Assembly: GCA_903915035.1 (NCBI GenBank)
Contig: CAIWRI010000134.1
Coordinates: forward strand, 1 to 45,351
Length of the DNA stretch: 45,351 nucleotides
Direction of reading: 5' to 3'
From: an uncultured Nitrosomonadales bacterium
GTDB lineage: Bacteria; Pseudomonadota; Gammaproteobacteria; Burkholderiales; Gallionellaceae
This document shows, piece after piece, positions 21,763 to 41,382 of this stretch. Position numbers and translations under genes: made by a program. The first letter of the stretch is position 1, and each line of letters starts with the position of its first letter. Below the pieces are notes generated by a model. The model worked only from the letters and a program-made list of their open reading frames with translations. It was not told the origin of the DNA and did not search any database.

Positions 21763-22377
21763 ATGGCATCAACCAAATACAGCATGTCCTTTACGACTGG
21801 CGGCCTACTCTCACAGGAATCGGAGAGGGTCGCACGTCTGTACCTGGAGCTTGGTGATTGGGTTCTTGTTCGTAATAGCGCCTTGGAAATGGGACTCATG
21901 CAGACGCGCATGCTAAGTTCTGCCAAGCGTATCTATCGAGAAGTATCCGCACGCCTTCAAACCTTAACCGATGAAGAAATCGAGATGCTGGTTAATGGTG
22001 GTGAACAGCAGCGTCCCCACCTGCTCTGGTTGGCGGTTTGCTGCCGATATTCATTTATCCGTGATTTTTTCGTTGAAATCCTTCGCGAGCGGTTTCTGAC
22101 CCTACGTCACGAAATTGCCAATGAAGACTTCGACACATTTTTTAATGCAAAATCCGAGTGGCATCATGAACTGAATACAATCACAACGGGCACGAGAACC
22201 AAGTTACGTCAGAATCTTTTTCGCATGTTGCGCGAGGCAGAATACATAAGCCTGTCCAATCGGATACAGCCTATGGTACTCACCCCACAGCTAGCTCAGA
22301 TGGTGTTGCGCAGAGGTGCCGATGCACTTTACCTTTATCCCACACTTGATTTCGAACCTAACCGGAGGGCGCAATAA
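21763..22377 (+). CDS. brxA: BREX protein BrxA (DUF1819)
   Basis: First gene of a type I BREX phage-resistance operon. BrxA is a small, mostly helical protein of the DUF1819 family, which has been reported to bind DNA. Residues 1-60 (SFTTGGLLSQESERVARLYL ... GLMQTRMLSSAKRIYREVSA) and PHLLWLAVCCRYSFIRDFFV match the family. Its 204 residues are typical. The stop TAA shares its last base with the brxB ATG. There is no BrxR-type WYL regulator upstream; that place is taken by the ABC-3C module. Confidence 0.92.
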   Translation: MASTKYSMSFTTGGLLSQESERVARLYLELGDWVLVRNSALEMGLMQTRMLSSAKRIYREVSARLQTLTDEEIEMLVNGGEQQRPHLLWLAVCCRYSFIRDFFVEILRERFLTLRHEIANEDFDTFFNAKSEWHHELNTITTGTRTKLRQNLFRMLREAEYISLSNRIQPMVLTPQLAQMVLRRGADALYLYPTLDFEPNRRAQ

Positions 22378-22985
22378 TGGTTGAATGGACAGCGCGTTCT
22401 TCGCAGGAAAAATTTCAGCATCTGTTAGCTGTCATCAGCAGCACTCGCTTCCTTAAAATGCAGAGTTTGAACAATGAAATTCCGTTCTACATCTGCCCGT
22501 ACAAACCGCAAGATGCCGTTGAAATGGAACGTCTTCAACAACAATTGAGAAATAAGCTAGACCAGTCTGGTATCCGTGTTCTGAATATCAATCTGTATGA
22601 TTTATCGATTGATCACCTGAAGAGCGAAGGCGATTGGGAATTTTATGTGCGCAATGAGCCGAGCATGCCCAAAGATGATCTGCTAAAAGAGTTACAGTCC
22701 ATGCTGGATGTTGAGTCCGTTATTATTCCTGCCATTTCGGCAAAAATGGCTGAGGATGAATTTGATGTGATGTTTATCTGTGGGGTTGGCGAGGTTTTTC
22801 CGTTTATTCGTTCACATAACGTATTGAATAACTTGCAAAAAGCAGCGAAACAGAAACCTACCGTGATGTTTTTTCCCGGTGAATATACCCATTCTCTTGA
22901 GGGTGGCGCGGCGCTTGAGCTGTTTGGTCGATTAAGAGATGACAAGTATTACCGTGCATTCAATATTGCCGATACGGCAATTTAA
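22377..22985 (+). CDS. brxB: BREX protein BrxB (DUF1788)
   Basis: A 202-residue DUF1788 protein found in nearly all type I BREX operons. Visible family features: RFLKMQSLNNEIPFYICPYK near the N-terminus, and the Rossmann-like C-terminal half EFDVMFICGVGEVFPFIRSH ... KPTVMFFPGEYT. Its biochemical role is not established. GGAGGG precedes the start, and it is coupled to brxA by a one-base stop/start overlap. Confidence 0.93.
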   Translation: MVEWTARSSQEKFQHLLAVISSTRFLKMQSLNNEIPFYICPYKPQDAVEMERLQQQLRNKLDQSGIRVLNINLYDLSIDHLKSEGDWEFYVRNEPSMPKDDLLKELQSMLDVESVIIPAISAKMAEDEFDVMFICGVGEVFPFIRSHNVLNNLQKAAKQKPTVMFFPGEYTHSLEGGAALELFGRLRDDKYYRAFNIADTAI

Positions 22986-23000: not shown

Positions 23001-26000
23001 ATGAATCTAATAGCGATTTTCAAAAAACCGGTAAATCGTACGATTGAAGGTGTGATCAAAGCCGATGACGAAGCAGGTCTGCGCGTTGAGCTTGAGGAAT
23101 ATGTTCTTACCAAAGAAGTTGAAAAACGTATTGAAGATTTCCTTTATGCCTACAATAAATATGAAGGTGCAAATGGTGTCTGGATATCGGGTTTCTTCGG
23201 TTCAGGTAAATCACATCTGCTCAAGATGCTGGCTTTGCTTCTTGAGAATCGTGCAATCGATGGTGTGCCGGCTTTGGATCTGTTTGTTGCCAAATGCGAT
23301 GACAACGAGGTGCTGCGCGCCGATTTGAAACGCGCCGCAGCCTTTCCATCAAAAAGCATTCTGTTCAATATCGATCAAAAAGCCGACGTCATCAGCAAGA
23401 CGCAGATTGATGCGCTGCTGGCTGTGTTCGTCAAAGTCTTCGATGAGTCATGCGGCTATTACGGCAAGCAGCCCTACATCGCGCAATTTGAGCGCGAACT
23501 TGAGCGTGAAGGCATGCTTGAGGGCTTCAAACAACATTTTGCTACGCTAGCCAAAAATGATTGGGATTGGGGAAGAGCGCGTCCGACACGGGTCGAAAGT
23601 TTCGTAGATCAAGCCTATAGCAAGATCACCGGACAGACCGTTGTTGGTGTGCTGGATAAGTTTCGCGCCGACTACCGTTTGTCGATTGAGGATTTTGCCA
23701 ATCAGGTGAAAGCGTATATTGATGCGCAAGCACATGGATTCCGGCTTAATTTCTTTGTTGATGAAGTGGGTCAGTACATCGCGGGGAACACCAAGCTGAT
23801 GACCAATCTGCAAACCATTGCGGAAAGTCTGGCTACGAAATGCAAGGGGCAGGCTTGGGTTATCGTCACGGCGCAAGAGGAAATGTCCAGCATCATTGGA
23901 GAAATGAGCACCAAAGAGAGTAATGACTTCACGAAAATTCAGGCGCGTTTTGCTAACCGCATGAAGCTCACCAGTGCGGACGTGGCTGAGGTTATCCAGA
24001 AGCGATTGCTGCTCAAGGATGATACGGGCATCGGTTTGTTGTCCGATGTGTATCATCTGCAATCGAATAACTTCAAGACCTTGTTTGATTTTGCTGATGG
24101 CTCGCAATCCTACAAAAATTTTAAGGATCGAGATCACTTCATTCATTGCTACCCGTTCATTCCTTACCAGTTTTCCCTGTTTCAAACGTCTATCCAAAGC
24201 TTGTCTATGCACAGTGGCTTTGAAGGAAAGCACAGTTCAGTGGGTGAGCGTTCCATGCTCGGGGTCTTTCAGCAAGTCGCGATTCAGATCGGCGAACATG
24301 AGGTAGGGCAACTCGCCACGTTCGATTTGATGTTCGAAGGGATACGCACGGCTCTCAAATCACATATTCAGAGAGCGATCATCCAGGCAGAAAATCACCT
24401 TGAGAGTCCTTTTGCCATCAAGGTGCTGAAGGCGCTTTTTCTGGTGAAATATGTAAAGGAATTCAAGCCCACGCTGCGGAATATGTGCGTACTGATGCTG
24501 GAGGGTTTCGATCAGGATATGTCGCAACTGCGCAAGCGCGTAGAGGATGCCTTAAATGTGCTGGAGCAACAAACCTATATTCAACGTAATGGTGAGTTCT
24601 ACGAGTACCTCACTGACGAAGAAAAGGACGTCGAGCAGGAAATTAAAAACACCGAGGTCGAAACGGCTGATGTGGCAGCTGAGCTGGATAAAATCATCTT
24701 TGACCACATAATCAAGAATCGAAAAATCCGCTTCGACACCAATGGACAGGACTATCCATACTCCCGTAAGCTGGATGATCGTCTGCAAGGTCGTGAATAC
24801 GAACTGGCCATTCATGTTGTCAGCCCTTTTCATGAGAATGTAGCCAGTGAAACGACGCTGCGCATGCAAAGCATGGGGCGTGATGAGCTGCTCGTCATCA
24901 TGCCGCAAGAAGACCGGCTAGTCCGCGACTTGTTGATGTACAAGCGTACTGAGAAGTACATCCGGCAAAATGTGTCGGTCACTCAGCAGGAGAATGTCAA
25001 ACGCATTCTGACAGACAAGGGCTTTCAGAATCAGGAACGTCATCGTGAATTACAGGCGATGTTGCAATCGCTGCTTGGTAAATCCAAGCTCATTATTTCC
25101 GGTGGTGACGTTGAGGTCAGCTCCGAGGATGCGCAATCACGCATTACGAAAGGTTTTCATGACCTGATCCAGCGTGTCTATCCGAATTTGCGGATGTTGC
25201 GCGGCTTTAATTACACCGAGAATGATGTTGGAAAATTCCTCAAACATGCTCAGGAAGGCTTGTTCGGCAACGATGGCACGTCACTCGCCGAGTCTGAACA
25301 GGAAATGCTTTCCTTCCTGCAAAGCAATAATCGTGGCGGAGTCAGAACTACCCTTAAGGGGCTGATTGAAAAATTTGAGCGCAAACCCTATGGATGGTAT
25401 TTCGCAGCGGTACTTTGTACCCTGGCGCACCTGTGTGCCAGAGGAAAGATCGAAGTTTGTATTGATGGTAATGTTCTGGAAGATGACGCACTGGAAAAAG
25501 CACTGCGCAATACGGCCGCTCATGGCAACGTAGTGCTTGAGCCTCAAGTCGACTTCACTGCCTCGCAGGTACGTGCGCTCAAAGAGTTTTATGCCGATTT
25601 CTTTGATACGCCCGCAGGATCGGGTGAGCCAAAGGCGCTCGGCAAGGAGTCTGAGGCTGCATTCAAACAGCTTGTGATTGATCTGAATGAATTGCTTGTG
25701 CAATCTGCGCAATACCCATTTTTGACGGCGCTTAAACCGGCAATCGAGACCCTTAAGGAAATTTCCGCAAAGCCTTATACCTGGCATCTCACCGAACTGA
25801 TCCGGCAGGAAAATGCACTATTGAACCTGAAAGAAAAGGTCAGCGATCCGATTCGCAAGTTCATGGCAGGGGCTCAGAAAGAAATTTTTAACGACACCAG
25901 AATATTCGTCCAGAGCCAGGAGCCCAATTTCGCCTATATCGAAGGGGATGAGGCAGTACAGATAACCGGTGTGCTCACTGATCCCGATTGCTATAAAGGC

Positions 26001-26552
26001 AATCGGATGCAACAGCTTAAAACGCTAGTCGATTCTCTACAGGGTAAAATCAACGCTCAAATCGCGGCTGAAATTGCAACGGCCACAACCTCTGTCGTCA
26101 TGTTGGAGCAACGTCTGCGCAATATGAACGAATTCGCGTTATTAAGCGCGGAGCAGCAAACTCAGATCACTCAGCCGTTTGTCGAGTTCGCTTCCAGGAT
26201 TGCACCGCAAAAACTGATCGCGGTGATCCGTGATTTGCATCGTCGTTTTGAAGAGGAAGGCTATTCGCGATTGTTGTCACAGCTGGGAAGTCTGTCGCGT
26301 CCTGTGCCTACACCACCAATAAAGCCGATTGAAACCGCGCCAGTACCAACCTCTTCTGGCACTCATCCCTTGAACCCGCCGGAGATTATTAAGCCAGCGG
26401 CTTCTAAGATTGATTACATCAGCAGTCGCAATATTCCTGTGGCGTTCGACAAGGCATGGCTGGCGGATGAAAACGATGTAGAAAATTACCTCGAATCCAT
26501 GCGTAAAGCCCTGCTCAAGGCGATTCGCGATGGTAAACGAGTCCAAATTTAA
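23001..26552 (+). CDS. brxC: BREX protein BrxC (P-loop ATPase)
   Basis: A large 1183-residue AAA-type ATPase essential in BREX. Walker A is WISGFFGSGKSHLLKML (K70) near the N-terminus; LNFFVDEVGQYIAGNTKLM supplies Walker B, followed by WVIVTAQEEM (sensor I). The remaining 800 residues carry helical and coiled-coil segments, including EEKDVEQEIKNTEVETADVA, and a proline-rich linker near residue 1100 (PVPTPPIKPIETAPVP). The C-terminal motif after the linker (ARNIPVAFDKAWL-like) is a common BrxC tail. Full length, no frameshift. The downstream gene starts after 10 bases. Confidence 0.95.
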   Translation: MNLIAIFKKPVNRTIEGVIKADDEAGLRVELEEYVLTKEVEKRIEDFLYAYNKYEGANGVWISGFFGSGKSHLLKMLALLLENRAIDGVPALDLFVAKCDDNEVLRADLKRAAAFPSKSILFNIDQKADVISKTQIDALLAVFVKVFDESCGYYGKQPYIAQFERELEREGMLEGFKQHFATLAKNDWDWGRARPTRVESFVDQAYSKITGQTVVGVLDKFRADYRLSIEDFANQVKAYIDAQAHGFRLNFFVDEVGQYIAGNTKLMTNLQTIAESLATKCKGQAWVIVTAQEEMSSIIGEMSTKESNDFTKIQARFANRMKLTSADVAEVIQKRLLLKDDTGIGLLSDVYHLQSNNFKTLFDFADGSQSYKNFKDRDHFIHCYPFIPYQFSLFQTSIQSLSMHSGFEGKHSSVGERSMLGVFQQVAIQIGEHEVGQLATFDLMFEGIRTALKSHIQRAIIQAENHLESPFAIKVLKALFLVKYVKEFKPTLRNMCVLMLEGFDQDMSQLRKRVEDALNVLEQQTYIQRNGEFYEYLTDEEKDVEQEIKNTEVETADVAAELDKIIFDHIIKNRKIRFDTNGQDYPYSRKLDDRLQGREYELAIHVVSPFHENVASETTLRMQSMGRDELLVIMPQEDRLVRDLLMYKRTEKYIRQNVSVTQQENVKRILTDKGFQNQERHRELQAMLQSLLGKSKLIISGGDVEVSSEDAQSRITKGFHDLIQRVYPNLRMLRGFNYTENDVGKFLKHAQEGLFGNDGTSLAESEQEMLSFLQSNNRGGVRTTLKGLIEKFERKPYGWYFAAVLCTLAHLCARGKIEVCIDGNVLEDDALEKALRNTAAHGNVVLEPQVDFTASQVRALKEFYADFFDTPAGSGEPKALGKESEAAFKQLVIDLNELLVQSAQYPFLTALKPAIETLKEISAKPYTWHLTELIRQENALLNLKEKVSDPIRKFMAGAQKEIFNDTRIFVQSQEPNFAYIEGDEAVQITGVLTDPDCYKGNRMQQLKTLVDSLQGKINAQIAAEIATATTSVVMLEQRLRNMNEFALLSAEQQTQITQPFVEFASRIAPQKLIAVIRDLHRRFEEEGYSRLLSQLGSLSRPVPTPPIKPIETAPVPTSSGTHPLNPPEIIKPAASKIDYISSRNIPVAFDKAWLADENDVENYLESMRKALLKAIRDGKRVQI

Positions 26553-27626: not shown

Positions 27627-28172
27627 ATGCGTTTATATAAAGCTGAAGATAACGCAGATTTACAGTTTGCATTTCCTGATTGGCTTAATTGGGAAGAGCT
27701 CGATAAGCAAAATGTAAAGCTACCTGTAAAAATGAAGTTCGTCGATTTAGTGATCGAACGTGAAAAGGATGTACTTTTAATTGAAATTAAAGATCCATCA
27801 CACGCAAGCTCACCAGAGAAAGAGCGAGCATCATATTTTAAGCGACTTCAAGACAACTCCGTAGTTACTCAAGAGTTAACGCCTAAAGCCCGTGATTCCT
27901 ATACCTATCTGCATTTAATGGAAAAGGATACTAAAACTTTTAAATACATTGTATTAATAGGTTTAGATGCTTTTGATGAACAGGCTCAAAAAGCACTACT
28001 CGGTGGATTTAAAGATCGTCTACTCGCTGACATTCGATGTGAGTCTTTTGAACCGTGGAAGCGGCGGCATATTGAGGATTGCGTAGTGTTCTCTGTGGCA
28101 GGTTGGAACAAACAGTTCCCCGCTTGGCAAATTTCGCGACTCAGTAAATCAGCCCCCGCAGGAGCACAATAA
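27627..28172 (+). CDS. putative PD-(D/E)XK nuclease-like partner of the upstream ATPase
   Basis: A 181-residue protein I do not recognise as a named family. The strand pattern KFVDLVIEREKDVLLIEIKD gives D40, then E53-x-K55, the arrangement of PD-(D/E)XK nuclease active sites. The C-terminal half (TFKYIVLIGLDAFDEQAQKA ... RHIEDCVVFSVAGWNKQFPA) is compatible with the same fold. I start at ATG 27627 (MRLYKAEDN); the TTG at 27621 overlaps the upstream stop. TAA shares one base with the pglX start. The nuclease assignment is motif-based inference. Confidence 0.55.
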   Translation: MRLYKAEDNADLQFAFPDWLNWEELDKQNVKLPVKMKFVDLVIEREKDVLLIEIKDPSHASSPEKERASYFKRLQDNSVVTQELTPKARDSYTYLHLMEKDTKTFKYIVLIGLDAFDEQAQKALLGGFKDRLLADIRCESFEPWKRRHIEDCVVFSVAGWNKQFPAWQISRLSKSAPAGAQ

Positions 28173-30415
28173 TGGAAACTACAAAACTCCGCCGCTTTGC
28201 CCAATACGCACGTCGCTCCCTGATGGAGCAGGTCTCAACTAAACTGGGTTTTGTCTTGGCTGACGACAGTCCAGCACGCCGCGAAAATCCTGCGGCAGTA
28301 GCCGACTTGCAAAAACAAATCAGTGAGTCCAGCCAGGATCAGGTGGTTGAGAAGGTCGCTTACACATGGTTTAACCGTTTTTGCGCTTTGCGGTTCATGG
28401 ATATGAATGGCTACACGCGCATCCGTGTGGTCTCTCCTGTCGATGAAAGTCAGTTTCAGCCTGAAATCCTTGCAGAAGCCAAAGCAGGGCATATCGACGA
28501 GGAGATGGTGGCAGACTCTGTAAGTCAGCGCATCAGTGCCTTACTGTCGGGTAGTGTGGCAAGCCGCGATCCGCAGCAGGAAGCTTATCGACTGCTTGTC
28601 GTGGCGGCGTGTAACGATTTTCATCGCGCGATGCCTTATCTGTTTGAACGCATTTCCGACTATACCGAATTGCTCATGCCTGACGATCTGCTGTCCGGTA
28701 ATTCCATTCTCGCCTACACCCGCGAAGCGATGACGCCAGATGCCTGTCAGGACGTGGAAGTCATCGGTTGGCTCTACCAGTTCTATATCTCTGAAAAGAA
28801 AGACGAGGTATTTGAAGGGCTTAAGAAAAACAAGAAAATTACCCCTGAAAATATTCCTGCCGCCACCCAGTTATTTACACCGCACTGGATTGTGCGTTAT
28901 CTGGTCGAGAATTCGCTGGGCCGTCTGTGGATGCAGAATCATCCGCAATCAAGACTTGTGGAAAAAATGCCTTACTACATAAAACCAGTGGAAAGTGGGG
29001 AGTGGGAAGTGGGGAGTGGGCAGTGCGGTGCGGCAAATGAGCGGGAAGTTAACAGTGAGGAGAGTGATGATGTCGGTTTAGAATTATCGAGAATTGATCG
29101 TCTGGCAAAAGGCGATGGATCTGGTGGAACTGGTTTACCAGGCAACCAAGGGATTCCCAAAGGAGGAGCTGTACGGATTAACCAATCAAGTGTGCCGAGC
29201 AGCAGTATCGATTCCCTCCAACATAGCGGAAGGCCAAGCGCGGCGGTCGACAGCGGACTTCAAGAACTTTCTATCAATCGCGCAAGGCTCCAGAGCGGAA
29301 GTGGAAACGCAGATACTGATCTCACAACGTCTGGGTTACATATCTCAACAACAGGCCGATCAAATACTGATTCTGTCCGAGGAAATCAAACGAATGATCT
29401 ATGCTCTCACAGCGAAGCTGGTTTAACTTCCCACTCTTCACTTCCCACTTCCCACTTGAGAATTTCCTCTCCTGAGGAAATTCGAATCTGCGATCCCGCT
29501 TGTGGCTCTGGACACATGCTCACCTATGCCTTCGATCTGCTTTACGCAATCTATGAAGAGGTTGGCATTGACCCGAACGAGATTCCAGAGAAGATACTCA
29601 CGCACAATTTATTCGGTATCGAGATCGACGAGCGGGCCGGTGAACTGGCTGCCTTTGCCCTGACCATGAAGGCCCGCGCCAAACAACGCCGCTTTTTCAA
29701 TAAAGGCATTCGTCCAAATATCTGCGTGTTGCAGCGCGTGAAGATCGAACAGAGTGATCTGGATGCCTACATAGTTGCTGTGGGGCGCGATCTGTTCACC
29801 GCCAACTTGCGAACCTTACTGAGTCAGTTCGATGAAGCTGATAATTTTGGTTCGCTGATTCGCCCCGTACCGTTGGACTTCGCCGAGCTACGCCGAGTTA
29901 TTTCCGAAAAAGGCATCGGCGATGATTTGTTGCTGGAACATGTGCATCATGATGTGCTGCGAGTATTGGAACAGGCGGAATACCTGAGCCAGCGATATCA
30001 GGTCGTAGTGGCGAATCCGCCGTATATGGGTGGCAAGGGGATGAACGGGCGGCTGGGTGCTTGGGCTAAGGATAAATACCCGGACAGCAAATCTGATCTG
30101 TTCGCGATGTTCATCGAGCGCAATCTTGATCTCGTCGTTAAACAGGGTTCTGTCGGCATGATCACCATGCAAAGCTGGATGTTTCTGTCCTCCTATGAAA
30201 AATTGCGTTCCAATCTGCTCAACGACAAGACGCTGACTTCAATGGCGCATCTAGGCGCACACGCATTTGATAGCATTGGTGGAGAAGTGGTTTCCACAAC
30301 GGCTTTCGTTTTAGAAAATGCCCATTATCCTGAATATAAAGGGGCTTATATTCGTTTGGTTGATGGAAATTCTGAGGCTGAAAAAGAAGCGATTCTTAGG
30401 CGGGTTATTCTATGA
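28172..30415 (+). CDS. pglX: BREX methyltransferase PglX, N-terminal (catalytic) part
   Basis: PglX methylates host DNA to mark self in BREX. This 747-residue protein holds the whole N6-adenine methyltransferase core: motif I DPACGSGHMLTYAF (D441) and catalytic motif IV ANPPYMGG (N615-Y618). The frame ends with AYIRLVDGNSEAEKEAILRR and a short foreign tail VIL, at the point where intact PglX continues into YRASAADF. Residues of about 272-429 (VESGEWEVGSG ... SLPTSHL) are not PglX but the in-frame translation of a heptamer element inserted between KP and LRISSPEEIR. The stop overlaps the RT-nitrilase start (ATGA). Whether it works together with the C-terminal half is inference. Confidence 0.92.
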   Translation: METTKLRRFAQYARRSLMEQVSTKLGFVLADDSPARRENPAAVADLQKQISESSQDQVVEKVAYTWFNRFCALRFMDMNGYTRIRVVSPVDESQFQPEILAEAKAGHIDEEMVADSVSQRISALLSGSVASRDPQQEAYRLLVVAACNDFHRAMPYLFERISDYTELLMPDDLLSGNSILAYTREAMTPDACQDVEVIGWLYQFYISEKKDEVFEGLKKNKKITPENIPAATQLFTPHWIVRYLVENSLGRLWMQNHPQSRLVEKMPYYIKPVESGEWEVGSGQCGAANEREVNSEESDDVGLELSRIDRLAKGDGSGGTGLPGNQGIPKGGAVRINQSSVPSSSIDSLQHSGRPSAAVDSGLQELSINRARLQSGSGNADTDLTTSGLHISTTGRSNTDSVRGNQTNDLCSHSEAGLTSHSSLPTSHLRISSPEEIRICDPACGSGHMLTYAFDLLYAIYEEVGIDPNEIPEKILTHNLFGIEIDERAGELAAFALTMKARAKQRRFFNKGIRPNICVLQRVKIEQSDLDAYIVAVGRDLFTANLRTLLSQFDEADNFGSLIRPVPLDFAELRRVISEKGIGDDLLLEHVHHDVLRVLEQAEYLSQRYQVVVANPPYMGGKGMNGRLGAWAKDKYPDSKSDLFAMFIERNLDLVVKQGSVGMITMQSWMFLSSYEKLRSNLLNDKTLTSMAHLGAHAFDSIGGEVVSTTAFVLENAHYPEYKGAYIRLVDGNSEAEKEAILRRVIL
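28987..29459. mobile_element. heptamer-flanked IVS-like element inside pglX
   Basis: The left end has five AGTGNNN heptamers from 28987 (AGTGGAA, AGTGGGG, AGTGGGA, AGTGGGG, AGTGGGC); the right end has CACTCTT, CACTTCC, CACTTCC, CACTTGA to 29459. In between lies a gene for a four-helix-bundle protein of the 23S rRNA intervening-sequence family. The element is an insertion relative to PglX, because conserved PglX sequence resumes on both sides. The host frame is open through all 157 or so codons. No transposase and no target duplication could be recognised. Confidence 0.8.
29067..29426 (+). pseudogene. four-helix-bundle protein (23S rRNA IVS protein family), nonsense codon near start
   Basis: After an ideal AGGAG (29058-29062) the ATGATG at 29067 opens the frame MMSV, then TAG at 29079-29081, then NYRELIVWQKAMDLVELVYQ and RAAVSIPSNIAEGQARRS ... 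IAQGSRAEVETQILISQRLG, which is diagnostic for the S23/IVS family related to DGR Avd proteins. Family members normally read K-N-Y-R at the stop, so a Lys codon has mutated. Translation could restart at TTG 29094, giving 110 residues. It is read one base out of phase with pglX. Known members sit in 23S rRNA insertions flanked by inverted repeats; their function is unclear. Confidence 0.8.
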
Positions 30416-33381
30416 TCATAAATCTCGAAAACCTCGGTATGGCCTACCGTAAAGCGAAGGTGGATCTCTATTACTCGACTCACGCGTCACTACTGGCAAT
30501 CGCCGAATACGAAAGTGACCTTGCAAATAACCTACTGGCTTTACTAATCAAACTGAATGGGGATGATGAAGGCTGGATAAAGGAAGACGCCTTTTTGGGT
30601 GGATGGACTTATGCCCCCAAATCTATTACTACGACAATAGAAGGCAAGTCAAATGGAAATGGGCTGATTTTTTCTTCTCCAGCAGACGAGTGGCGCCACA
30701 TTTGTGAAGTGGAATCCTCCGAAAAGCCAACGGCTGAGTTTCGTTTGATGGCAACGAATAGTCTTAACTTTCACGTCATGTCAACCTTATGGATGATGAA
30801 TATTGGCCATAAATACGATGCAAAATTAACTGATTGTGCCTATGGCAATCGACTGCGTCGAAACCAAGATGGTGATATCAACCTACTGTCACTCGGCTCA
30901 TTTTCACCCTACCTGAAACCTTTTCGCACATGGCGTGATAACGGGATTAACGCCATGAGCACGGCGCTGGCGGCGGATAAACATGTTGTTGCACTTACTG
31001 CCGATGTCAGCTCTTTTTACCATGAGTTGAATTCGAACTTCATGCTTGATGACCAATTTAATGCATTGCTTGACATTGAGCTGTCTCCAGTAGAACAAAA
31101 GCTTCACCGTTTGTTCATTACTGCACTGCAAGCTTGGGCACAAAAGACACCTCTTAAAAAAGGACTCCCAGTGGGTTTGCCGGCTTCTGCGGTCGTGGCT
31201 AATATGGCATTGATTGAGCTGGATCGCTTGGTAGAACAGCAGGTGGCACCTTTGTATTACGGACGTTATGTGGACGACATTCTGTTGGTAATGGAAAACG
31301 GTGCCAAGTTTCAAACTCCTGCCGAGCTTTGGCAATGGTTGTTCGATCGTTCAAGTGGAAAGCTTGGGTGGGTAGATGACAGCCATAAAAATGAAATTAC
31401 GTTTCAGCCAAACTATCTGAGTGATAGCCAGATACGTTTTGCCAACGCAAAGAACAAAGTTTTTTTGTTGGTGGGAGAAACAGGAAAAACATTGGTGGAT
31501 GCAATTGCGCACCAGATTTATGAGCGAGCCAGTGAATGGCGTGCTTTGCCGAGCTTACCATTTTCAGCCAAGCATGTTGCGACTGATCTAGTGGCGGCCA
31601 CGCAAAGCGATGGCGAAGCAGCCGACAACCTGCGCAAGACTGATGCGATGACCATGCGCAGAGCCGGATTTGCGATCAAACTGCGTGACTTTGAAGCTTA
31701 CGAACGCGATTTACATCCTGAAGCCTGGAAAGACCATCGCCATGCATTTTTTCGCGCCTTTGAACAGCATGTTCTCGTGCTGCCACATTTTTTTGAACTG
31801 GCTATTTATTTGCCTCGTGTGATCCGGTTGGCGACTGCGTGTGAAGATTTCGAGCACTTGCGTAAGATCATTGATGGGCTTAAGTATATCTGCCACAGTG
31901 TAGGTGAAAACTGTACGGCACGCATTAAGTCCTGTTCAGAAATCCATTCTTCAGAAGTGGTAGTTGAGCAGTGGAAAACCCAGCTTTTTAAAACCTTACA
32001 TGACAGTATCATTGCCTCATTTCCGCCGAAGTTGTCAAAAACGGGGAAAGGTGCATGGCAGGCGCATATTCTCAACTCTGGTCTTAAGATTGGTATGCTC
32101 TCGATAAAGGAAATTCAGGCGGGACAGGCATGGCTGTTTTCTTATGATTTGGCACACATGCCGTTCCGCTTTATCGGCCTTCCCAAAGAAATGATCGCAC
32201 AGCGCGGCATTCCAAATCGTAAAACGGTGAAATGTTTTGATAATGCTAAGCAATTTTTACCGTCAGCTATCATTGACGGTATCACGACGCTAGCAGCTTG
32301 GACAAAGTTTAAGAAAGATTTGCCTTGTGGTCTGCTGTTTGCAACCCGCCCTTTTGGCTTGGCTGAACTATTCGTCGTGGCTAAAGACCCCTTTGCAGAT
32401 GCCGCTTATAAACTAATGCAAGCAGTGGTTTTAGCGCTGCGTGGATTCAACCTTAACGAGAAAACACCACGGTTTAATAAGGGAATTTTGCATATTCCAG
32501 ATGGCGCTTTTCAGCCGAAGCTCGCCATTGCGGTTTCAAGCTGGCAAACACAGTACAGCACATGGGTGGCAGCGGTGACGAGATCGCCTGATCCTGACAT
32601 TGGTCGCTATGCTCGATTGGCGCGGCTGGTGAATAGTGTTATTTCGCAGCCCAAAGGCACACGTTATTTCATTCTGCCCGAATTGGCCTTACCTGCACAC
32701 TGGTTCATGCGTATTGCGCAAAAATTGCAAGGCCGGGGCATCTCGCTGATCACTGGAATTGAGTACCTGCACGCAGGCAAGGGGCGGGTGCGCAATCAGT
32801 TGTGGGCTGCGTTGACGCACGATGGGCTGGGTTTCCCTTCCATGATGATTTACCGTCAGGACAAACAACGTCCTGCGCTACATGAAGAGCAGGAGTTACA
32901 ACGTCTTGCTGGTTTGGAAATGAAACCAGATCCAGGTAAGGCATGGAAAATCCCGCCAGTCATACAGCATGGAAAGTTTCGCTTTGCCATGCTGGTATGT
33001 AGTGAGTTAACTAATATCAGCTATCGCGCAGCCTTGCGTGGCGAGGTGGATGCCTTGTTTGTGCCGGAATGGAATAAAGACACTGAATCATTTAATGCAC
33101 TCGTGGAATCCGCTGCGCTGGATATTCATGCCTACGTTATTCAATGCAATGACCGTCAATACGGAGACAGCCGTATCCGGGCACCCTATAAAAACAGTTG
33201 GGAACGTGATGTGCTGCGCGTCAAAGGTGGTATTGACGACTACTGCGTGACGGGAAAAGTTGACATTCAGTTACTGCGTCAATTTCAGTCCAGCTTCCGT
33301 TCGCCCAGCGGGCCATTCAAGCCGGTGCCGGATGGCTTTGAGATGAAGTTCGACAGAAAAGTGCTGCCCTGCGGAGAGTGA
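30412..33381 (+). CDS. RT-nitrilase fusion (defence-associated RT, DRT type 1/UG1-like)
   Basis: A 989-residue protein with an N-terminal reverse transcriptase and C-terminal nitrilase-like domain. RT motif A is ALTADVSSFYHEL (D198), motif B GLPVGLPASAVVANMALIEL, and motif C YYGRYVDDILLVME (Y286-V-D-D289), so both catalytic aspartates are present. The nitrilase triad appears conserved: E757 in ILPELALP, K818 in YRQDKQRP and C863 in MLVCSELTN. This is the architecture of the UG1/DRT type 1 anti-phage RTs. The gene begins in the four-base overlap with the pglX N-part stop and ends two bases before the pglX C-part ATG, so it sits exactly within pglX. Confidence 0.9.
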   Translation: MIINLENLGMAYRKAKVDLYYSTHASLLAIAEYESDLANNLLALLIKLNGDDEGWIKEDAFLGGWTYAPKSITTTIEGKSNGNGLIFSSPADEWRHICEVESSEKPTAEFRLMATNSLNFHVMSTLWMMNIGHKYDAKLTDCAYGNRLRRNQDGDINLLSLGSFSPYLKPFRTWRDNGINAMSTALAADKHVVALTADVSSFYHELNSNFMLDDQFNALLDIELSPVEQKLHRLFITALQAWAQKTPLKKGLPVGLPASAVVANMALIELDRLVEQQVAPLYYGRYVDDILLVMENGAKFQTPAELWQWLFDRSSGKLGWVDDSHKNEITFQPNYLSDSQIRFANAKNKVFLLVGETGKTLVDAIAHQIYERASEWRALPSLPFSAKHVATDLVAATQSDGEAADNLRKTDAMTMRRAGFAIKLRDFEAYERDLHPEAWKDHRHAFFRAFEQHVLVLPHFFELAIYLPRVIRLATACEDFEHLRKIIDGLKYICHSVGENCTARIKSCSEIHSSEVVVEQWKTQLFKTLHDSIIASFPPKLSKTGKGAWQAHILNSGLKIGMLSIKEIQAGQAWLFSYDLAHMPFRFIGLPKEMIAQRGIPNRKTVKCFDNAKQFLPSAIIDGITTLAAWTKFKKDLPCGLLFATRPFGLAELFVVAKDPFADAAYKLMQAVVLALRGFNLNEKTPRFNKGILHIPDGAFQPKLAIAVSSWQTQYSTWVAAVTRSPDPDIGRYARLARLVNSVISQPKGTRYFILPELALPAHWFMRIAQKLQGRGISLITGIEYLHAGKGRVRNQLWAALTHDGLGFPSMMIYRQDKQRPALHEEQELQRLAGLEMKPDPGKAWKIPPVIQHGKFRFAMLVCSELTNISYRAALRGEVDALFVPEWNKDTESFNALVESAALDIHAYVIQCNDRQYGDSRIRAPYKNSWERDVLRVKGGIDDYCVTGKVDIQLLRQFQSSFRSPSGPFKPVPDGFEMKFDRKVLPCGE

Positions 33382-33382
33382 G

Positions 33383-35371
33383 ATGAGTGATATGAAAAAT
33401 GTCTTAAACAGTTCTGATCAAATGCCGGAGTCAAGTGAGTTGATAAATCGTGAATCCAAGGACGGTGCGGAGAAATATTTCTTTCGCGCTTCTGCCGCTG
33501 ATTTTAGGAAAATTTCAGGCAGCCCGATTGCATATTGGGTCAGTGAAAAAATTCGAAGTATTTTCGAGGTTGAACCTTCTGTGGGGGATGTGGTTGAGGC
33601 TAAGCAAGGATTAGGGACAGGGCAGGACGCGAAGTTTCTCCATTTTTTCTGGGAAGTTTCCCGTGCAGAAATGGGATTGGATTTTCCTAATGTAAGCGAT
33701 GCCTGGACTAGTAATAAAAAATGGCTTCCCTTGAATAAGGGAGGATCGTTTAGAAAATGGTATGGCAATCGTGAATACTTAATTGCTTTCGATAAAGAGA
33801 ATAGAGATATTCTGAAAAAGTTGGGAAACCATCTACCGTCAGAGCATCTTTACTGCAAGCCATTTATTTCATGGTCAGACATTACTTCTGCAAACAACTC
33901 GTTCAGAAAATTTGAGCACGGATTCTTATTTTCCAATACTGGGCATTGTGCGTTCCCGAAAAATTCCACAGAGGAATCCATACTTCTCAGCTACTGCAAT
34001 AATAAATTCGTCAACATGATGACGAAGATTCTGAATCCAACAATTCACTTTCATGTTGGGTATTTCAATTTGCTCCCATACCCATCTAAGATTACTGAGC
34101 GAAAAGAAAGGATTCAGAACCTAACAGAAATCCTAATTGCGAATGAAAAAATTGATTGGAACTCTTTCGAAACTTCTTGGGACTTCGAACAATCGGTGTT
34201 GCTACTAAGGGAAAGTCACCAATCCACAATAAGTGCGACCTACGACACGCTCAGTGCCAAGTGGTTCGAGACAACGCTAAAAATGCAAAGTCTCGAAGAA
34301 GAAAACAACCGTATCTTCATCGACGCCTACGGTCTGCAAGACGAACTGACGCCTGATGTGCCTTTGGAAGAAATCACGTTAACTTGTAATCCATATTATC
34401 GTTATGGAAAGAAAGCGGTGATTTCTTCAGTGAAAAGTGGAGAGTTGAAAGTGAAAAGTAATGATGTAGATGCTTCTCACTCGCCACTCGCTACTAACCA
34501 CTTTCCACTCAACGAGGAGCTCGAAGAGCGACTAGTTGCAGACACGATGCGCGAATTTATCTCCTACGCGGTCGGTTGCATGTTCGGTCGCTACAGCCTC
34601 GATAAACCCGGCCTGATTCTCGCCAACCAAGGCGAAACGGTTGCGGACTATGTCCGCAAAGTGGAAAGTGGAAAGTTGGAAGTGGAAAGTAATGGTGCTG
34701 ATGCTTCCCACTGTTCTTCACTTCCCACTTCTCACTGTTCTTCAACTTCCCAGTTATCCTTCGTCCCCGACGAGGACAATGTGATCCCCATACTGGATGG
34801 AGACTGGTTTACCGATGATATCGCGGAGCGCTTCCGCGCCTTCCTGCGCGTAACCTTCGGCGATGAGAACTACGAGGAAAACCTCCGCTTCATTGAGGAT
34901 GCGCTAGGCAAGAAGGGTAAGCCGCTGCCGATCCGCGATTACTTCCTCAAAGAATTTTACACCGACCACGTCAAACGCTATAAAAAGCGCCCGATCTACT
35001 GGCTGTTCAGCAGTCCCAAGGGCAGTTTTAACGCACTGATCTACCTGCACCGTTATCGCCCGGATACGGTAAGTGTGGTGCTAAACGATTACCTGCGTGA
35101 TTTCAATAGCAAGTTGACTGCTCGCAAGAGTCATTTGGAACACGTCAGCGTAAGCGGCAATGCGTCGGCGGGTGAAAAAACCAAAGCACTGAAGGATATC
35201 GAGAATCTTAAAAAAATCCTGGTCGAGCTGGCAGATTATGAGCGCGATGTACTGTACCCCTTGGCAACACGCCAACTTGAAATCGACCTCGATGATGGCG
35301 TGAAGCATAATTACGGACTGTTCGGCAGTGCATTGAAAAAGATTGTCGGGCTAGATGCGGCTGAGGAATAA
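33383..35371 (+). CDS. pglX: BREX methyltransferase PglX, C-terminal (target recognition) part
   Basis: Starts with about 30 residues that look like a new leader (MSDMKNVLNSSDQMPESSEL), then resumes PglX at YFFRASAADFRKISGSPIAYW, the target-recognition and C-terminal region, and ends with the usual PglX tail HNYGLFGSALKKIVGLDA. It has 662 residues and no methyltransferase motifs. CGGAGAG lies ideally before the ATG, so it can be translated on its own. Two further heptamer elements are translated in-frame (SVKSGELKVKSN ... and KVESGKLEVESN ...). The split resembles the HsdM/HsdS division of type I R-M enzymes; function in trans is inference. Confidence 0.9.
   Translation: MSDMKNVLNSSDQMPESSELINRESKDGAEKYFFRASAADFRKISGSPIAYWVSEKIRSIFEVEPSVGDVVEAKQGLGTGQDAKFLHFFWEVSRAEMGLDFPNVSDAWTSNKKWLPLNKGGSFRKWYGNREYLIAFDKENRDILKKLGNHLPSEHLYCKPFISWSDITSANNSFRKFEHGFLFSNTGHCAFPKNSTEESILLSYCNNKFVNMMTKILNPTIHFHVGYFNLLPYPSKITERKERIQNLTEILIANEKIDWNSFETSWDFEQSVLLLRESHQSTISATYDTLSAKWFETTLKMQSLEEENNRIFIDAYGLQDELTPDVPLEEITLTCNPYYRYGKKAVISSVKSGELKVKSNDVDASHSPLATNHFPLNEELEERLVADTMREFISYAVGCMFGRYSLDKPGLILANQGETVADYVRKVESGKLEVESNGADASHCSSLPTSHCSSTSQLSFVPDEDNVIPILDGDWFTDDIAERFRAFLRVTFGDENYEENLRFIEDALGKKGKPLPIRDYFLKEFYTDHVKRYKKRPIYWLFSSPKGSFNALIYLHRYRPDTVSVVLNDYLRDFNSKLTARKSHLEHVSVSGNASAGEKTKALKDIENLKKILVELADYERDVLYPLATRQLEIDLDDGVKHNYGLFGSALKKIVGLDAAEE
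34429..34512. repeat. 84-bp heptamer element, gene-less, in pglX C-part
   Basis: Five left heptamers (AGTGAAA, AGTGGAG, AGTTGAA, AGTGAAA, AGTAATG), a 14-base core, and five right heptamers (CACTCGC twice, TACTAAC, CACTTTC, CACTCAA). 84 is a multiple of three, so the host frame is preserved as 28 extra codons. The junction AGTAATGATGT matches the start-codon region of the gene-bearing copy in the first pglX half (AGTGATGATGT), so this looks like an internal-deletion derivative. Confidence 0.82.
34660..34752. repeat. about 93-bp heptamer element, gene-less, in pglX C-part
   Basis: Left heptamers AGTGGAA, AGTGGAA, AGTTGGA, AGTGGAA, AGTAATG; right side CACTGTT, CTT, CACTTCC, CACTTCT, CACTGTT and a degenerate end near 34752. 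The core GATGCTTC before the right array is shared with the 84-bp copy 150 bases upstream. The host frame stays open. Confidence 0.8.
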
Positions 35372-35374: not shown

Positions 35375-36829
35375 ATGAGCTTTATTCTGGAAACCCTATT
35401 ACAACAAAACGAAGGCAAGACACTGGAGTTTAAGCGTGATTTGTCTTCGCCCAAGCCCCTGTTAAAAACACTGGTGGCCTTTGCCAATACAGCCGGTGGT
35501 CGTTTAGTGATTGGTGTGACCGACGATCATCAACTTGTCGGGGTTGATGATCCTCTGACTGAAGAGGAACGTATCTGCAACCTGATTTCCGATGGAATTT
35601 CGCCCCGGTTAGTACCCAATGTGGAAATGATCACGCTTGAAGGTAAAACCTTGTTGGTGATTGAGGTTTATCTGAGCAATTCACGTCCCCATTGGTTGAA
35701 GGCGCAAGGTGCTGAGTTGGGGGTTTATGTCCGGCTGGGTTCCACCAATCGGCAGGCTGATCGTGAGCTGATCGCCGAATTGCAGCGTTCAGTCGAGGGC
35801 ATTGCTTATGATGAAATGCCGATGCCGGAACTTTCTGTCGATGAACTGGATTTAACCATCGCGCAAACATTGTTCGGCCATACTCGTTTGTTGGATGAGC
35901 AAGCTTTGCTCACCTTGAGATTACTCACGGATTATCAGGGGAGGCGGGTACCGACTAAGGGAGCAGTTTTGCTTTTTGGCAAGCGGCGCACCTTTCACTT
36001 TCCAGATGCGTGGATACAGTGCGGACGTTTTTTTGGCACTGAAAAAATAGATATTTTTGACCACATTGATATCAATGCCCCGTTGCCAACAGCCGTGGAT
36101 GAGGTCATGCTGTTTTTGAAGAAACATGCGTTTCGCGGTGCTGACATGTCAGAGGTTCGGCGCAAAGATGTCTGGAGTATTCCACTCGGAATTTTGCGCG
36201 AAGCCGTCATCAATGCCATTGTTCATGCTGATTATTCCCAGCGCGGCTCACCGATTCGGGTGGTTTTTTTGGATGATCGCATTGAAATTGAAAATCCCGG
36301 ACTGTTCCTGCCCGGATTAACCTTGGAAGACATCAAGCAAGGTACTTCTAAAATTCGTAACACCGTGATTGTTCGCGTTTTTAGAGAGTTGAATTTAATC
36401 GAGCAGTGGGGCACGGGAGTGCGGCGTATTTTTACTGAGGCACAAGCCCTTGGGCTTCCCGAACCTCAACTTATCGAGGTGGGAATGCGGGTGCGTTTCA
36501 TTATTCCATTATTGGAGCCGATATCGATTCGAAGCGTTCAGAAGTTGGTCAATGAACAAGTCGAAGCACAAGTCGAGGCACAAGTCGAAGCACAAGTCGA
36601 TATTGACATTCTTATCGCCTGTGCCGGCAGACCGTTATCATCGGCGGAAATTTCCAGCGTTTTAGGTCACAAGCAGCTGAGTGGAAATTTGCGTCAAGCG
36701 CTACCACGGTTAAGAAAAGTCGGGCTACTTGAATACACGATTCCAGACAAGCCAAATAGCCGTTTACAGAAGTACCGGTTATCATCGAAAGGGCGTGAAT
36801 TGATTAGCAGGTCTGGCAGGAAAGATTAA
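35375..36829 (+). CDS. AlbA_2/Schlafen-domain ATP-binding protein, BREX cargo
   Basis: The N-terminal AlbA_2 (Schlafen-like) nucleic-acid-binding domain shows EGKTLEFKRDLSSPKPLLKT and LVAFANTAGGRLVIGVTDD (residues 13-50). A HATPase_c_4-type domain follows (REAVINAIVHADYSQRGSPI, IEIENPGLFLPGLTLEDIKQ), as in RecG-like 'ATP-dependent helicase' annotations that are not true helicases. A winged-helix segment forms the C-terminus (LSSAEISSVLGHKQLSGNLR). A linker of VEAQ repeats joins the parts. It has 484 residues. Such proteins are frequent accessory genes beside PglX, and three bases separate it from pglX. Its role is probably regulatory or defensive, unproven. Confidence 0.85.
   Translation: MSFILETLLQQNEGKTLEFKRDLSSPKPLLKTLVAFANTAGGRLVIGVTDDHQLVGVDDPLTEEERICNLISDGISPRLVPNVEMITLEGKTLLVIEVYLSNSRPHWLKAQGAELGVYVRLGSTNRQADRELIAELQRSVEGIAYDEMPMPELSVDELDLTIAQTLFGHTRLLDEQALLTLRLLTDYQGRRVPTKGAVLLFGKRRTFHFPDAWIQCGRFFGTEKIDIFDHIDINAPLPTAVDEVMLFLKKHAFRGADMSEVRRKDVWSIPLGILREAVINAIVHADYSQRGSPIRVVFLDDRIEIENPGLFLPGLTLEDIKQGTSKIRNTVIVRVFRELNLIEQWGTGVRRIFTEAQALGLPEPQLIEVGMRVRFIIPLLEPISIRSVQKLVNEQVEAQVEAQVEAQVDIDILIACAGRPLSSAEISSVLGHKQLSGNLRQALPRLRKVGLLEYTIPDKPNSRLQKYRLSSKGRELISRSGRKD
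36557..36600 (+). repeat. 12-bp coding tandem repeat
   Basis: Units of CAAGTCGARGCA occur at 36557, 36569 and 36581, followed by a partial fourth unit to 36600. They encode (Q-V-E-A)n, a short flexible or coiled linker between the ATPase-like and winged-helix parts. The copy number is likely to vary between strains by slippage. Confidence 0.88.
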
Positions 36830-38258: not shown

Positions 38259-38890
38259 AGTACATCATCAAGCAGCAGGAGCCGCAAGCGTTTTCGGAAT
38301 GGAAGGCGATGGCCAGTGAAGACTGGCAGCCAACTTACGGAGAGCTGAGTGGAAATGTCAAACAGAGCGTCAAACAGACACTCATGTCGGAACAGGGCTA
38401 CATCTGCTGCTACTGTGAACGCCGACTGATAGATGGCGATTCCCACATTGAACATTTCAGACCACAAAACGACCCGCAAGTCGATCCGCTGGATTATGCG
38501 AATCTGCTGTGCTCCTGCCAGAACAAAATAGAAAAAGGTGAGCCGCGTCATTGCGGAAATTTGAAGAATGGTTGGTTTGACGAACAATTACTGATCTCAC
38601 CATTGAGTGCTGATTGCGCGGAACGATTCGCCTATTCAGGTGATGGAAAAATAAGGCCTGCAAACCCTCTGGACAACTCCGCTCAGGTGACGATTACACG
38701 GCTTGGGCTAGCTACGCCAAAAATAAATGCCTTGCGCTCAAAGGCAATTGAGCCCTTTCTTGATGATGACTTAAGTGTAGCGGAGATGAAACAGTTTGTC
38801 GCAGCTTATCTTCAGAAAGACGGACAAGGCAGATTTGGCGAATTTTGGACTGGCATCCATTATTTGTTCAGGGGGGATGCAATTTTATGA
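38255..38890 (+). CDS. ptuB: Septu HNH endonuclease PtuB
   Basis: A 211-residue HNH nuclease (TIGR02646-like). The metal and catalytic motifs are CCYCERRL, then HIEHFRPQND and NLLCSCQNKIEKGEPRHCGN; the four cysteines form a structural zinc site and the HIEHF supplies the first His of HNH. It overlaps ptuA and the next gene by four bases each (ATGA), so it is tightly coupled. In Septu, PtuB is the nuclease activated by the PtuA assembly. Confidence 0.85.
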   Translation: MKYIIKQQEPQAFSEWKAMASEDWQPTYGELSGNVKQSVKQTLMSEQGYICCYCERRLIDGDSHIEHFRPQNDPQVDPLDYANLLCSCQNKIEKGEPRHCGNLKNGWFDEQLLISPLSADCAERFAYSGDGKIRPANPLDNSAQVTITRLGLATPKINALRSKAIEPFLDDDLSVAEMKQFVAAYLQKDGQGRFGEFWTGIHYLFRGDAIL

Positions 38891-41382
38891 GTACGAGGAT
38901 TGCACAGGCACTGACCAAGAAATTTGAAAAATCCCGCATTGTCTTCTGGTACGACACCAAGCAGGAGTTGCGTGCCGATTTTGAAGCGCTGGCATTAGCT
39001 GATGTCGAGAAAATTGAAATCGTCAACAACGAGCTGGGCATCAAGCATCTTATTTTACGGGATCAGCCGGACAGTAAATTCCTGCTATTCAAATCAGGCC
39101 CTCAACCTGCTGACCTGGATAACTGGTTGCTGGATGTTCAATTGGCTCACGGTGAGTTTCGAACGGATCAAGTTGCCTTGTGGCTGGCAGAGCTGGAATT
39201 GGGGCTGGAGTTTGTCGATGTCGTTCAGGCACATGCGGAATTTTTCAATTCCACCAAGCGAATTGCTTCACTCAAAACACTGCTAAAGAAAGACGACACT
39301 CAAGGTCTTCTTCGTTTGAAAATGCTCGCTGTCTGTGCCGGTAGCGATGAACGTCTGGATGCCGTATTGGAACATCTTTTGTTAGCGCTATCTGAAGGTA
39401 ATGAGGATAAGTTTAAACTCATAGCCCGGTGTGATCTGCATAAGATGCTCTGGGAATTGATGAAACGTGCCTATGGTTATGAATCAGACACGCCGGGTCT
39501 GCGTGATTTTGTGGTGGAATTATTTAAATCCTGCCTTGCCATGTCAATACAAGGTGCGGTCAAACTGAGCAACGATGCACTGGTATTTTTGAAACGCTGG
39601 AAAGACAGCCGTCAGTTTCAATCGAGCTTTGAGTCCCTGTCGGCAGAGTGCGCCGAAATTTTGGGGTTGGAGCAAGAGTTCAGTAAGCGCGATTTTCGTG
39701 ATCTCATAGCGGTGGATTACTTCAGGCTGATTGACCAAAAAATCATTTCGGAATTGGTTCAGCAAATTATGGTTCGTACCGTCAGCGCCGGTGAAGTCGC
39801 ATTGTGGGTGCGGCAACGCCGCCAGGGACACTGGTATGATGAGTTTGCACATCTGTATGGTGCAGTTGAAGTAGCGGCTGAATTTATCCGTGCGCTGGAT
39901 GAGGCGACACTGACGATGGAATCATTGGCGGACGGCATTCAACGCTACAGCCAATCCTGGTTCAGGCTGGATCAACTCTACCGGAAATTTATCTACCATG
40001 TCAGCAGTGAGGGGCAGGCATCCCTTATGAACGGGTTGACTGAGCAAATCGAAAATCTCTACGCTAATAATTATTTGTTAAAACTAAACGACCGCTGGCA
40101 GGTGTTCGTTGATGCAGCCAAATTTTGGGATGCACCACCGGTGCCATTGCAACGTGACTTCTTTAATAAGTGGGTGCGGCCATTTTTAGAGAAGGATAAT
40201 AAGGTTTACGTGATTATCTCGGATGCATTTCGTTATGAGATTGGTGAAGAGTTACTGACGCTGATTCGGCAGGAAGATCGTTATGAGGCCAGCATCGAAG
40301 CGGCGATGTCCATGCTGCCGAGCTATACCCAGTTAGGCATGGCTGCATTGTTGCCCAACAAAGAGTTAACTCTGACGGGCGATTCTGCCGCCAGTACCTT
40401 GGTCGATGGGCAAAGTTCGCAAGGTACGCCGAACCGGGAGAAAATTCTAAATCTTGGTTCTGGCAAAGCCGGTGCCACTCTCAAGGCAGACGACTTCATC
40501 AATATGGATAAAGAGGAATGCCGCACATTATTACGCAATAATGATGTGGTCTATATTTACCATAATCTGATCGACTTCACCGGCAAGCGCGATTCCGAGG
40601 AGCGCGTATTTGAGGCGGCTGAAAAAACATTGGAAGTTCTCATCCGGCTAATCAAAAAACTCACCGGTGCGAATGCAAGTAACTTGCTGGTGACAGCGGA
40701 TCATGGTTTTATCTATCAGCATCGGCCTATTGCCGAGAGTGACTATCTGAGTGCCGAGGTATCAGGCGATGAAATTCTGTATCGAGATCGGCGATTTTTT
40801 ATCGGGCGAGGCCTGAAAGAGAACAGTAGCCTTAAGTCGTTCACTTCCGAACATCTTGGGTTAACCGGCAACATTGAGGTGCAGATACCAAAGTCCATCA
40901 ACCGCCTGCGTCTGCAAGGTTCGGCGAGTCGCTTTGTGCATGGGGGGGCTTCGCTGCAGGAGTTGGTTATTCCGGTCATCAAAATCAATAAAAAGCGGCA
41001 GAGTGATTTGTCTGTGGTTGAGGTCGATATTTTGCGCGGTGCCAGTTCCACGATTACCTCGGGCCAATTGGCGGTGGTGCTGTATCAAGCACAGGCTGCG
41101 ACTGAAAAAATTCAGGGACGAGTCCTGAGTGCAGGGATTTATACACAAGCTGGAGATTTGATTTCAGACAGCCATGAATTGAGATTCGATCTGACGTCAG
41201 ATAATCCGCGTGACCGTGAGATGCCGGTGCGCTTTGTGTTGAGCCGTAAAGCTGACGAGTGCAATGGTCAGGAGGTGATATTGCGCGTGGATGAAAAGTT
41301 GGCGGGTACCAGTCACTATAAGGAATACAAGTCGCTACGCTATATGGTAAGGCGTTCATTTACCAGTGATTTCGACTTCTAG
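38887..41382 (+). CDS. pglZ: BREX alkaline-phosphatase-like protein PglZ (type I, BrxZ)
   Basis: A core BREX protein of the alkaline phosphatase superfamily. Its 831 residues start at ATG 38887 (MSTRIAQALTKKFEKSRIVF); an earlier in-frame ATG at 38845 is within ptuB. The PglZ domain metal site is visible as VYVIISDAFRYEIGEELL (D446) and later NLLVTADHGFIYQHR (D-H-G). The N-terminal part (FWYDTKQELRADFEALA) is typical for type I. GAGCAAG precedes brxL 14 bases later. Confidence 0.94.
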   Translation: MSTRIAQALTKKFEKSRIVFWYDTKQELRADFEALALADVEKIEIVNNELGIKHLILRDQPDSKFLLFKSGPQPADLDNWLLDVQLAHGEFRTDQVALWLAELELGLEFVDVVQAHAEFFNSTKRIASLKTLLKKDDTQGLLRLKMLAVCAGSDERLDAVLEHLLLALSEGNEDKFKLIARCDLHKMLWELMKRAYGYESDTPGLRDFVVELFKSCLAMSIQGAVKLSNDALVFLKRWKDSRQFQSSFESLSAECAEILGLEQEFSKRDFRDLIAVDYFRLIDQKIISELVQQIMVRTVSAGEVALWVRQRRQGHWYDEFAHLYGAVEVAAEFIRALDEATLTMESLADGIQRYSQSWFRLDQLYRKFIYHVSSEGQASLMNGLTEQIENLYANNYLLKLNDRWQVFVDAAKFWDAPPVPLQRDFFNKWVRPFLEKDNKVYVIISDAFRYEIGEELLTLIRQEDRYEASIEAAMSMLPSYTQLGMAALLPNKELTLTGDSAASTLVDGQSSQGTPNREKILNLGSGKAGATLKADDFINMDKEECRTLLRNNDVVYIYHNLIDFTGKRDSEERVFEAAEKTLEVLIRLIKKLTGANASNLLVTADHGFIYQHRPIAESDYLSAEVSGDEILYRDRRFFIGRGLKENSSLKSFTSEHLGLTGNIEVQIPKSINRLRLQGSASRFVHGGASLQELVIPVIKINKKRQSDLSVVEVDILRGASSTITSGQLAVVLYQAQAATEKIQGRVLSAGIYTQAGDLISDSHELRFDLTSDNPRDREMPVRFVLSRKADECNGQEVILRVDEKLAGTSHYKEYKSLRYMVRRSFTSDFDF

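Follow-up and report, generated by a model that had tools for sequence, protein, structure and literature searches.

Type 1 bacteriophage exclusion (BREX) systems have six core genes (brxA, brxB, brxC, pglX, pglZ, and brxL), and their methyltransferase, PglX or BrxX, is a single polypeptide, as in the structures from E. coli (9EWZ) and Salmonella (8C45/8Q56). In type I restriction-modification (R-M) systems, the methyltransferase and the specificity function are on separate chains, HsdM and HsdS. Some BREX operons contain a second defence enzyme of the type IV restriction class, BrxU/GmrSD, whose gene is reported to lie within the operon but outside the core genes. The window analysed here, a whole stretch of 45,351 nt from an uncultured Nitrosomonadales bacterium, contains a full type 1 BREX operon with all genes on the plus strand. 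The six core genes are recognized in one operon with PADLOC profiles, but pglX is present as two open reading frames (ORFs) instead of one, and the gene for a reverse transcriptase (RT) fused to a nitrilase lies between them. The features of the interrupted gene are as follows.

28172..30415, plus strand: pglX-N, 747 amino acids (aa), N-terminal domain and methyltransferase domain (upper jaw), stops at the hinge; PADLOC PglX, phmmer match to BrxX residue 638
28987..29460, plus strand: mobile-type insertion in pglX-N; inverted repeats 28993-29024 / 29426-29457 around an ORF for a 23S rRNA intervening-sequence protein (23S_rRNA_IVP)
30412..33381, plus strand: RT-nitrilase, UG5-type, 989 aa; PADLOC RT_UG5-nitrilase, 1030 bits, aa 3-987
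33373..33378, plus strand: GGAGAG, Shine-Dalgarno-like, within the final part of the RT coding sequence; spaced 4 nt from the ATG of pglX-C at 33383, same in the second locus described below
33383..35371, plus strand: pglX-C, 662 aa, target-recognition and C-terminal domain (lower jaw); PADLOC, phmmer match to PglX from residue 641

The profile matches of pglX-N and pglX-C correspond to opposite ends of PglX. It is likely that the two ORFs encode a two-chain PglX similar to HsdM/HsdS, and that the embedded, translationally coupled defence-associated reverse transcriptase (DRT) serves as a second defence layer. The arrangement itself is real, conserved, and unusual. As in other type 1 BREX systems, the core operon is complete, all domains and motifs of PglX are found in the two halves, and the fold of the C-terminal half matches (Z 34-35); unlike them, the enzyme consists of two chains, divided at the hinge and separated by the gene of a further defence system. 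The target-recognition part of pglX-C resembles HsdS (1yf2, Z 10). In contrast to type I R-M, the two chains come from the splitting of a one-chain enzyme, the C-terminal domain of PglX is retained, an RT gene separates the chains, and HsdR is missing: no HsdR match was found among the neighbouring genes searched, and the flanking genes belong to BREX, Septu, and others.

Position of the cut and the two PglX halves

The match of pglX-N ends at BrxX residue 638, and pglX-C picks up at 641-644 in phmmer comparisons. Cryo-EM analysis assigned BrxX residues 638-675 to the flexible loops of the hinge that connects the methyltransferase jaw to the target-recognition jaw (PMC11842806), and the hinge of Salmonella PglX is at 654-659 (PMC11341690). 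Judged by this alignment, the cut falls at the start of the flexible hinge joining the two jaws. No conserved block is lost there. About six linker residues are swapped for a new N-terminal extension of pglX-C (aa 1-31), which is missing from the intact PglX proteins compared; no homologue of it was seen in other PglX linkers among these intact sequences. The NPPY motif, which the initial annotation had placed at aa 615-618 of pglX-N, was verified at this position, and both NPPY and the S-adenosylmethionine (SAM) motif DPACGSGH are intact.

The structure of pglX-C alone was modelled from a 24-row alignment with a pTM of 0.81. Confidence is low only in aa 1-50 (the extension and the start of the hinge), in the two repeats inserted in this half, and at the very C terminus. 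The model aligns with the whole lower jaw of PglX with Z scores of 35.5, 34.5, and 33.6 to 8c45, 8q56, and 9ewz, respectively (562 residues at 2.7 A in the best case). According to this model, pglX-C is the complete lower jaw of PglX.

The junctions are compact. The stop codon of pglX-N overlaps the start codon of the RT gene in the ATGA at 30412-30415, as reported in the initial annotation, and one base lies between the RT stop codon and the pglX-C start codon (TGA-G-ATG). The GGAGAG motif had been placed two bases before the second ATG; the real spacing is four bases. A search of the window with Rfam for elements at the junctions, such as a retron RNA or a group II intron, detected only a tRNA. 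There are no flanking direct repeats from transposition around the RT gene. Inside pglX-N, six promoter-like sites were found versus 9.8 expected by chance, giving no signal of a promoter for separate expression.

The halves had been described as otherwise undamaged, but this does not hold. The insertion in pglX-N adds ~154 aa in frame (aa ~275-430), and pglX reads open through it. Its ORF, at about 29082-29426 and in a frame other than that of pglX, encodes the 23S rRNA intervening-sequence protein (S23 four-helix bundle; PF05635, E 3e-41). The insertion lies between BrxX residues 286 and 303, ahead of SAM motif I. Its core is single-copy in this genome, and its repeat arms account for the other 38 matches. 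Two small palindromic repeats of the AGTGGGAAGTGG/CCACTTCCCACT type are in frame in pglX-C, at 34429-34509 (aa ~350-375) and 34660-34736 (aa ~430-457). A further repeat of this type, which has many matches genome-wide, is at 14261-14320 of the window.

A second locus and the selection on the three ORFs

The scan of 84,980 species genomes revealed a second instance, locus L019, on a contig labelled as Candidatus Melainabacteria metagenome-assembled genome (MAG) palsa_1080. Its gene order, brxA-brxB-brxC-HEC02A-HEC02B-pglX-N-RT-pglX-C, is the same as in the window. The same breakpoint, whose recurrence the initial annotation had proposed to look for, is thus present in a diverged relative. The junctions also match those of the window, with ATGA at the first and the GGAGAG motif followed by TGA-N-ATG at the second. 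An assembly artefact or chance is excluded by this independent contig with the same layout. The RT of L019 is 84% identical to that of the window, and in the RT tree the two form a clade (support 100/100) among RTs located outside pglX. The simplest reading of these sequences is one insertion before the window and L019 split. The pglX-N of L019 (8187-10004) lacks the intervening-sequence protein insertion; it also carries an in-frame repeat, of the RGELVEP type.

Between the window and L019, the ratio of nonsynonymous to synonymous substitution rates (dN/dS) is 0.10 for pglX-N (dS 0.97), 0.125 for the RT (dS 0.76), and 0.06-0.13 for the blocks of pglX-C outside the target-recognition region where dS is estimable. 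Judged from these comparisons, purifying selection acts on each of the three ORFs, with dN/dS of 0.06-0.14 outside the target-recognition region. The 31-residue extension of pglX-C also shows a synonymous excess between the two loci (p 0.009). The target-recognition block (pglX-C aa 54-245) is only 30% identical between the window and L019, versus ~80% in its flanks. Such divergence is the usual mark of specificity exchange, which is still going on; pglX-C has thus acted as a specificity module.

Relative-rate tests detected no acceleration in the pglX-N, RT, or brxC of the window. The test of pglX-C with one outgroup was uneven, with the excess in L019. The split pglX of the window does not have the marks of a pseudogene, as its frames are open and selection is not relaxed. 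The proposal that the catalytic and recognition parts are maintained as separate chains, like HsdM and HsdS, is supported by the L019 junctions, the purifying selection, the exchange in the target-recognition block, and the cut at the hinge.

The RT-nitrilase, its relatives, and the neighbouring genes

The initial annotation had recognized a complete RT-nitrilase inside pglX, which agrees with the 989-aa ORF flanked by ORFs of 747 and 662 aa and with the presence of the YVDD motif and the E-K-C triad. Its assignment to DRT type 1 (UG1) needs correction. The RT matches the PADLOC UG5-nitrilase profile (PDLC03780) at full length with 1030 bits, and the next best profile scores 157 bits. The Drt1a profile reaches only 73.8 bits, with its best stretch at aa 753-942 in the nitrilase region. 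Based on these scores, the RT is of the UG5 type of class 3, and not UG1/DRT1. The catalytic YVDD (aa 286-289) is intact; one of the four relatives compared has YMDD. The nitrilase residues E757, K818, and C863 are present, and none of them varies among the four relatives. DRT1 also consists of an RT with a C-terminal nitrilase but belongs to a different UG class and has 1229 aa; its structure (9YFD) is the nearest solved one by sequence, with a weak match over the nitrilase region only. Modelling of the RT with AlphaFold on four sequences gave a pLDDT of 33, and the result was not used.

Class 3 RTs perform template-free DNA synthesis with a protein primer, as seen in tests of DRT1 and DRT5S/L, and in DRT1 such synthesis governs the nitrilase effector and abortive infection (PMC13275509). 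By analogy, we infer that this biochemistry may apply to the RT of the window. The RT shares with the UG5-nitrilase/DRT5 RTs (class 3 UG/Abi) the full-length profile match, YVDD, and the E-K-C nitrilase residues. It differs from them in its location, which is not free-standing but inside another defence gene, and leaves no intergenic room for its own non-coding RNA or promoter.

Relatives that share 49-70% identity with the RT are found outside BREX: alone, on rhizobial plasmids, inside a type I R-M operon, or beside a DUF1016 gene. Those at 63-70% stand alone, in Nitrosospira, a gammaproteobacterial MAG, and Sinorhizobium plasmids. In genome G256, the relative is directly 3' of a DUF1016 nuclease gene and has an internal stop. 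In genome G930 (L192 62-12085), a relative with 64-66% identity follows hsdR, hsdM, DUF1016, hsdS, and another gene within what reads as a type I R-M operon (names as read from the translations), and it overlaps the start of the next gene. The search of IMG/VR yielded only relatives that are at most ~31% identical across the greater part of their length, and none of them is accompanied by PglX. Given these locations outside BREX, the RT gene is a passenger, at times of modification operons, which does not need PglX.

The other genes of the operon, all on the plus strand, and the neighbouring defence genes are listed below.

21763..22377, plus strand: brxA; PADLOC BrxA, E 4.5e-73
22377..22985, plus strand: brxB; PADLOC BrxB, E 7.6e-65
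23001..26552, plus strand: brxC; PADLOC BrxC, 1793 bits
26563-27624, plus strand: HEC-02A ATPase, accessory, upstream of pglX; PADLOC, E 1.4e-108
27621-28172, plus strand: HEC-02B, accessory, directly upstream of pglX; PADLOC, E 1.1e-70
35375..36829, plus strand: AlbA_2/Schlafen-type gene; Pfam PF04326, E 6.7e-25
36975-38258, plus strand: Septu ptuA, embedded in the BREX operon; PADLOC
38255-38890, plus strand: Septu ptuB, embedded in the BREX operon; PADLOC
38845..41382, plus strand: pglZ; PADLOC PglZ, 1056 bits
41397..43445, plus strand: brxL; PADLOC BrxL, 1100 bits

Upstream of the defence operon, a tRNA-Val gene at 17208-17284 of the window is a possible integration site of the island.

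Rarity of the arrangement and its interpretation

In a third BREX locus, L080, pglX is interrupted at the same hinge. It is one of four close PglX matches in a class-wide sample, the other three being intact. The sequence between the pglX pieces of L080 (11150-11760) is an internally deleted remnant of an AlbA_2-type gene, whose start, MPFHEILNKSERKTLEFKRDLSSPKP, shares 60% identity across 30 aa with the beginning of the AlbA_2-type gene of the window. The pglX-C of L080 has its own ATG just ahead of the conserved YFFRASAEDFKKIPGSP. In contrast to the window, the pglX of L080 is degenerate, frameshifted and decaying. By its sequence, L080 shows that two different genes have each made use of the hinge, and how real breakage looks. 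Because this hinge was cut by a different accessory gene, it seems to be a recurrent insertion point. It is, however, highly improbable that the hinge is a regular plug-in site for effectors (the UG5 RT and the AlbA_2 type), where an effector would dock between the jaws and be controlled by BREX recognition.

The split arrangement is rare, since PglX proteins of the same family and those in IMG/VR are intact at the hinge. All eight complete PglX proteins in the survey of the window's family are intact, and two others end at contig ends. In 26 IMG/VR loci, every PglX that matches through the hinge is uninterrupted there. No gene in the hinge was found on plasmids, in phage records, or on IMG/VR contigs among the matches and loci examined, which include many intact PglX. 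Two candidates were rejected: in Acinetobacter pittii NZ_CP139283 the interruption is annotated as IS30, and in Rhodovulum sp. P5 there is a frameshift downstream of the breakpoint of the window. The N-terminal parts of PglX on four IMG/VR contigs (L105, L106, L107, and L108, near 6000-7050) all stop just before SAM motif I, and several have a similar new tail, possibly through the integration of mobile elements into the codons of motif I. A tandem pair of intact pglX genes in one locus was observed in L083/L084, L088, and L098.

The best explanation is as follows. The UG5 RT-nitrilase gene would have entered pglX at the codons of the flexible hinge in an ancestor of the present BREX lineage, leaving pglX-N and pglX-C separately started and linked by overlapping or near-overlapping stop and start codons. 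The operon message would be translated by termination-reinitiation across all three genes. The PglX chains most likely bind each other without a covalent link, in the manner of HsdM and HsdS, and would methylate DNA and guide BREX. The RT-nitrilase would be a second, probably suicidal, defence layer. The split PglX probably still works, since the same layout, with selection acting on each of the three genes, is also retained in another bacterium that has diverged from this one. A probable two-chain PglX is the strongest claim that the evidence permits.

Several observations weigh against this explanation. The chief reason for caution is the large insertion near SAM motif I, which may impair the PglX of the window itself. 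Two further brx loci (G000:C31 and G000:C78, or L055 and L056) are present in the same genome, with divergent brxC/pglX and one of them truncated by a contig end, so the loss of the present locus could be tolerable. The L019 contig shows no visible pglZ or brxL and contains scaffold gaps, and its MAG label is doubtful, as it is possibly misbinned. Moreover, the form with the RT in pglX is known from two loci only, both probably from one insertion.

One alternative is that the insertion of the RT gene simply broke pglX, leaving pseudogene pieces around an RT that alone matters. The invasion of the window's pglX by the intervening-sequence protein element and the palindromic repeats, the two other brx loci, and the decay by frameshifts of a hinge-interrupted pglX in L080 are all in line with it. 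It is nevertheless unlikely, given that both halves are open with dN/dS of ~0.1 between loci at dS of ~0.7-1.0, the exchange in the target-recognition region postdates the split, the junctions are identical in both loci, and no acceleration was detected in the window. A narrower loss, in which only the methyltransferase function disappeared and the halves were kept for another role, such as a structural one of PglX-N in the BREX complex, would fit the position of the insertion adjoining SAM motif I. NPPY and DPACGSGH are intact and pglX-C is constrained as well, which makes such a loss most improbable.

The initial annotation also suggested that the RT could sense or back up the failure of BREX. 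The strict adjacency, the translational coupling, and the position of the RT between the halves in two loci would be expected if the RT-nitrilase belonged to a three-part machine, as a subunit with a physical or regulatory role that binds the split PglX or fires when BREX fails. However, the occurrence of the RT relatives outside BREX counts against a dedicated BREX sensor, though one could have arisen here. The hinge is occupied by a different gene in L080, and the type IV enzyme GmrSD/BrxU, embedded in a BREX operon, works without PglX (PMC12373910). No direct coupling between the RT and BREX beyond translation was found, and the suggested response of the RT to BREX failure gains no support. 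A three-part machine is therefore considered very unlikely, and the two-chain PglX with an RT acting probably on its own is preferred.

No paper on a PglX divided by an RT gene turned up in the literature collection searched. A survey from 2026, which covered the BREX neighbourhoods of ~21,500 assemblies, is silent in its main text on reverse transcriptases, nitrilases, and split BrxX (PMC12839542). If both chains work, this locus would encode a natural two-subunit BREX methyltransferase, in which the jaws of PglX do not need a covalent link, and would offer a ready construct for swapping specificity subunits. It would parallel the interconversion of one-chain and M+S modification enzymes. The locus also shows that a defence gene can lodge within a core gene of a different defence system and not destroy it.
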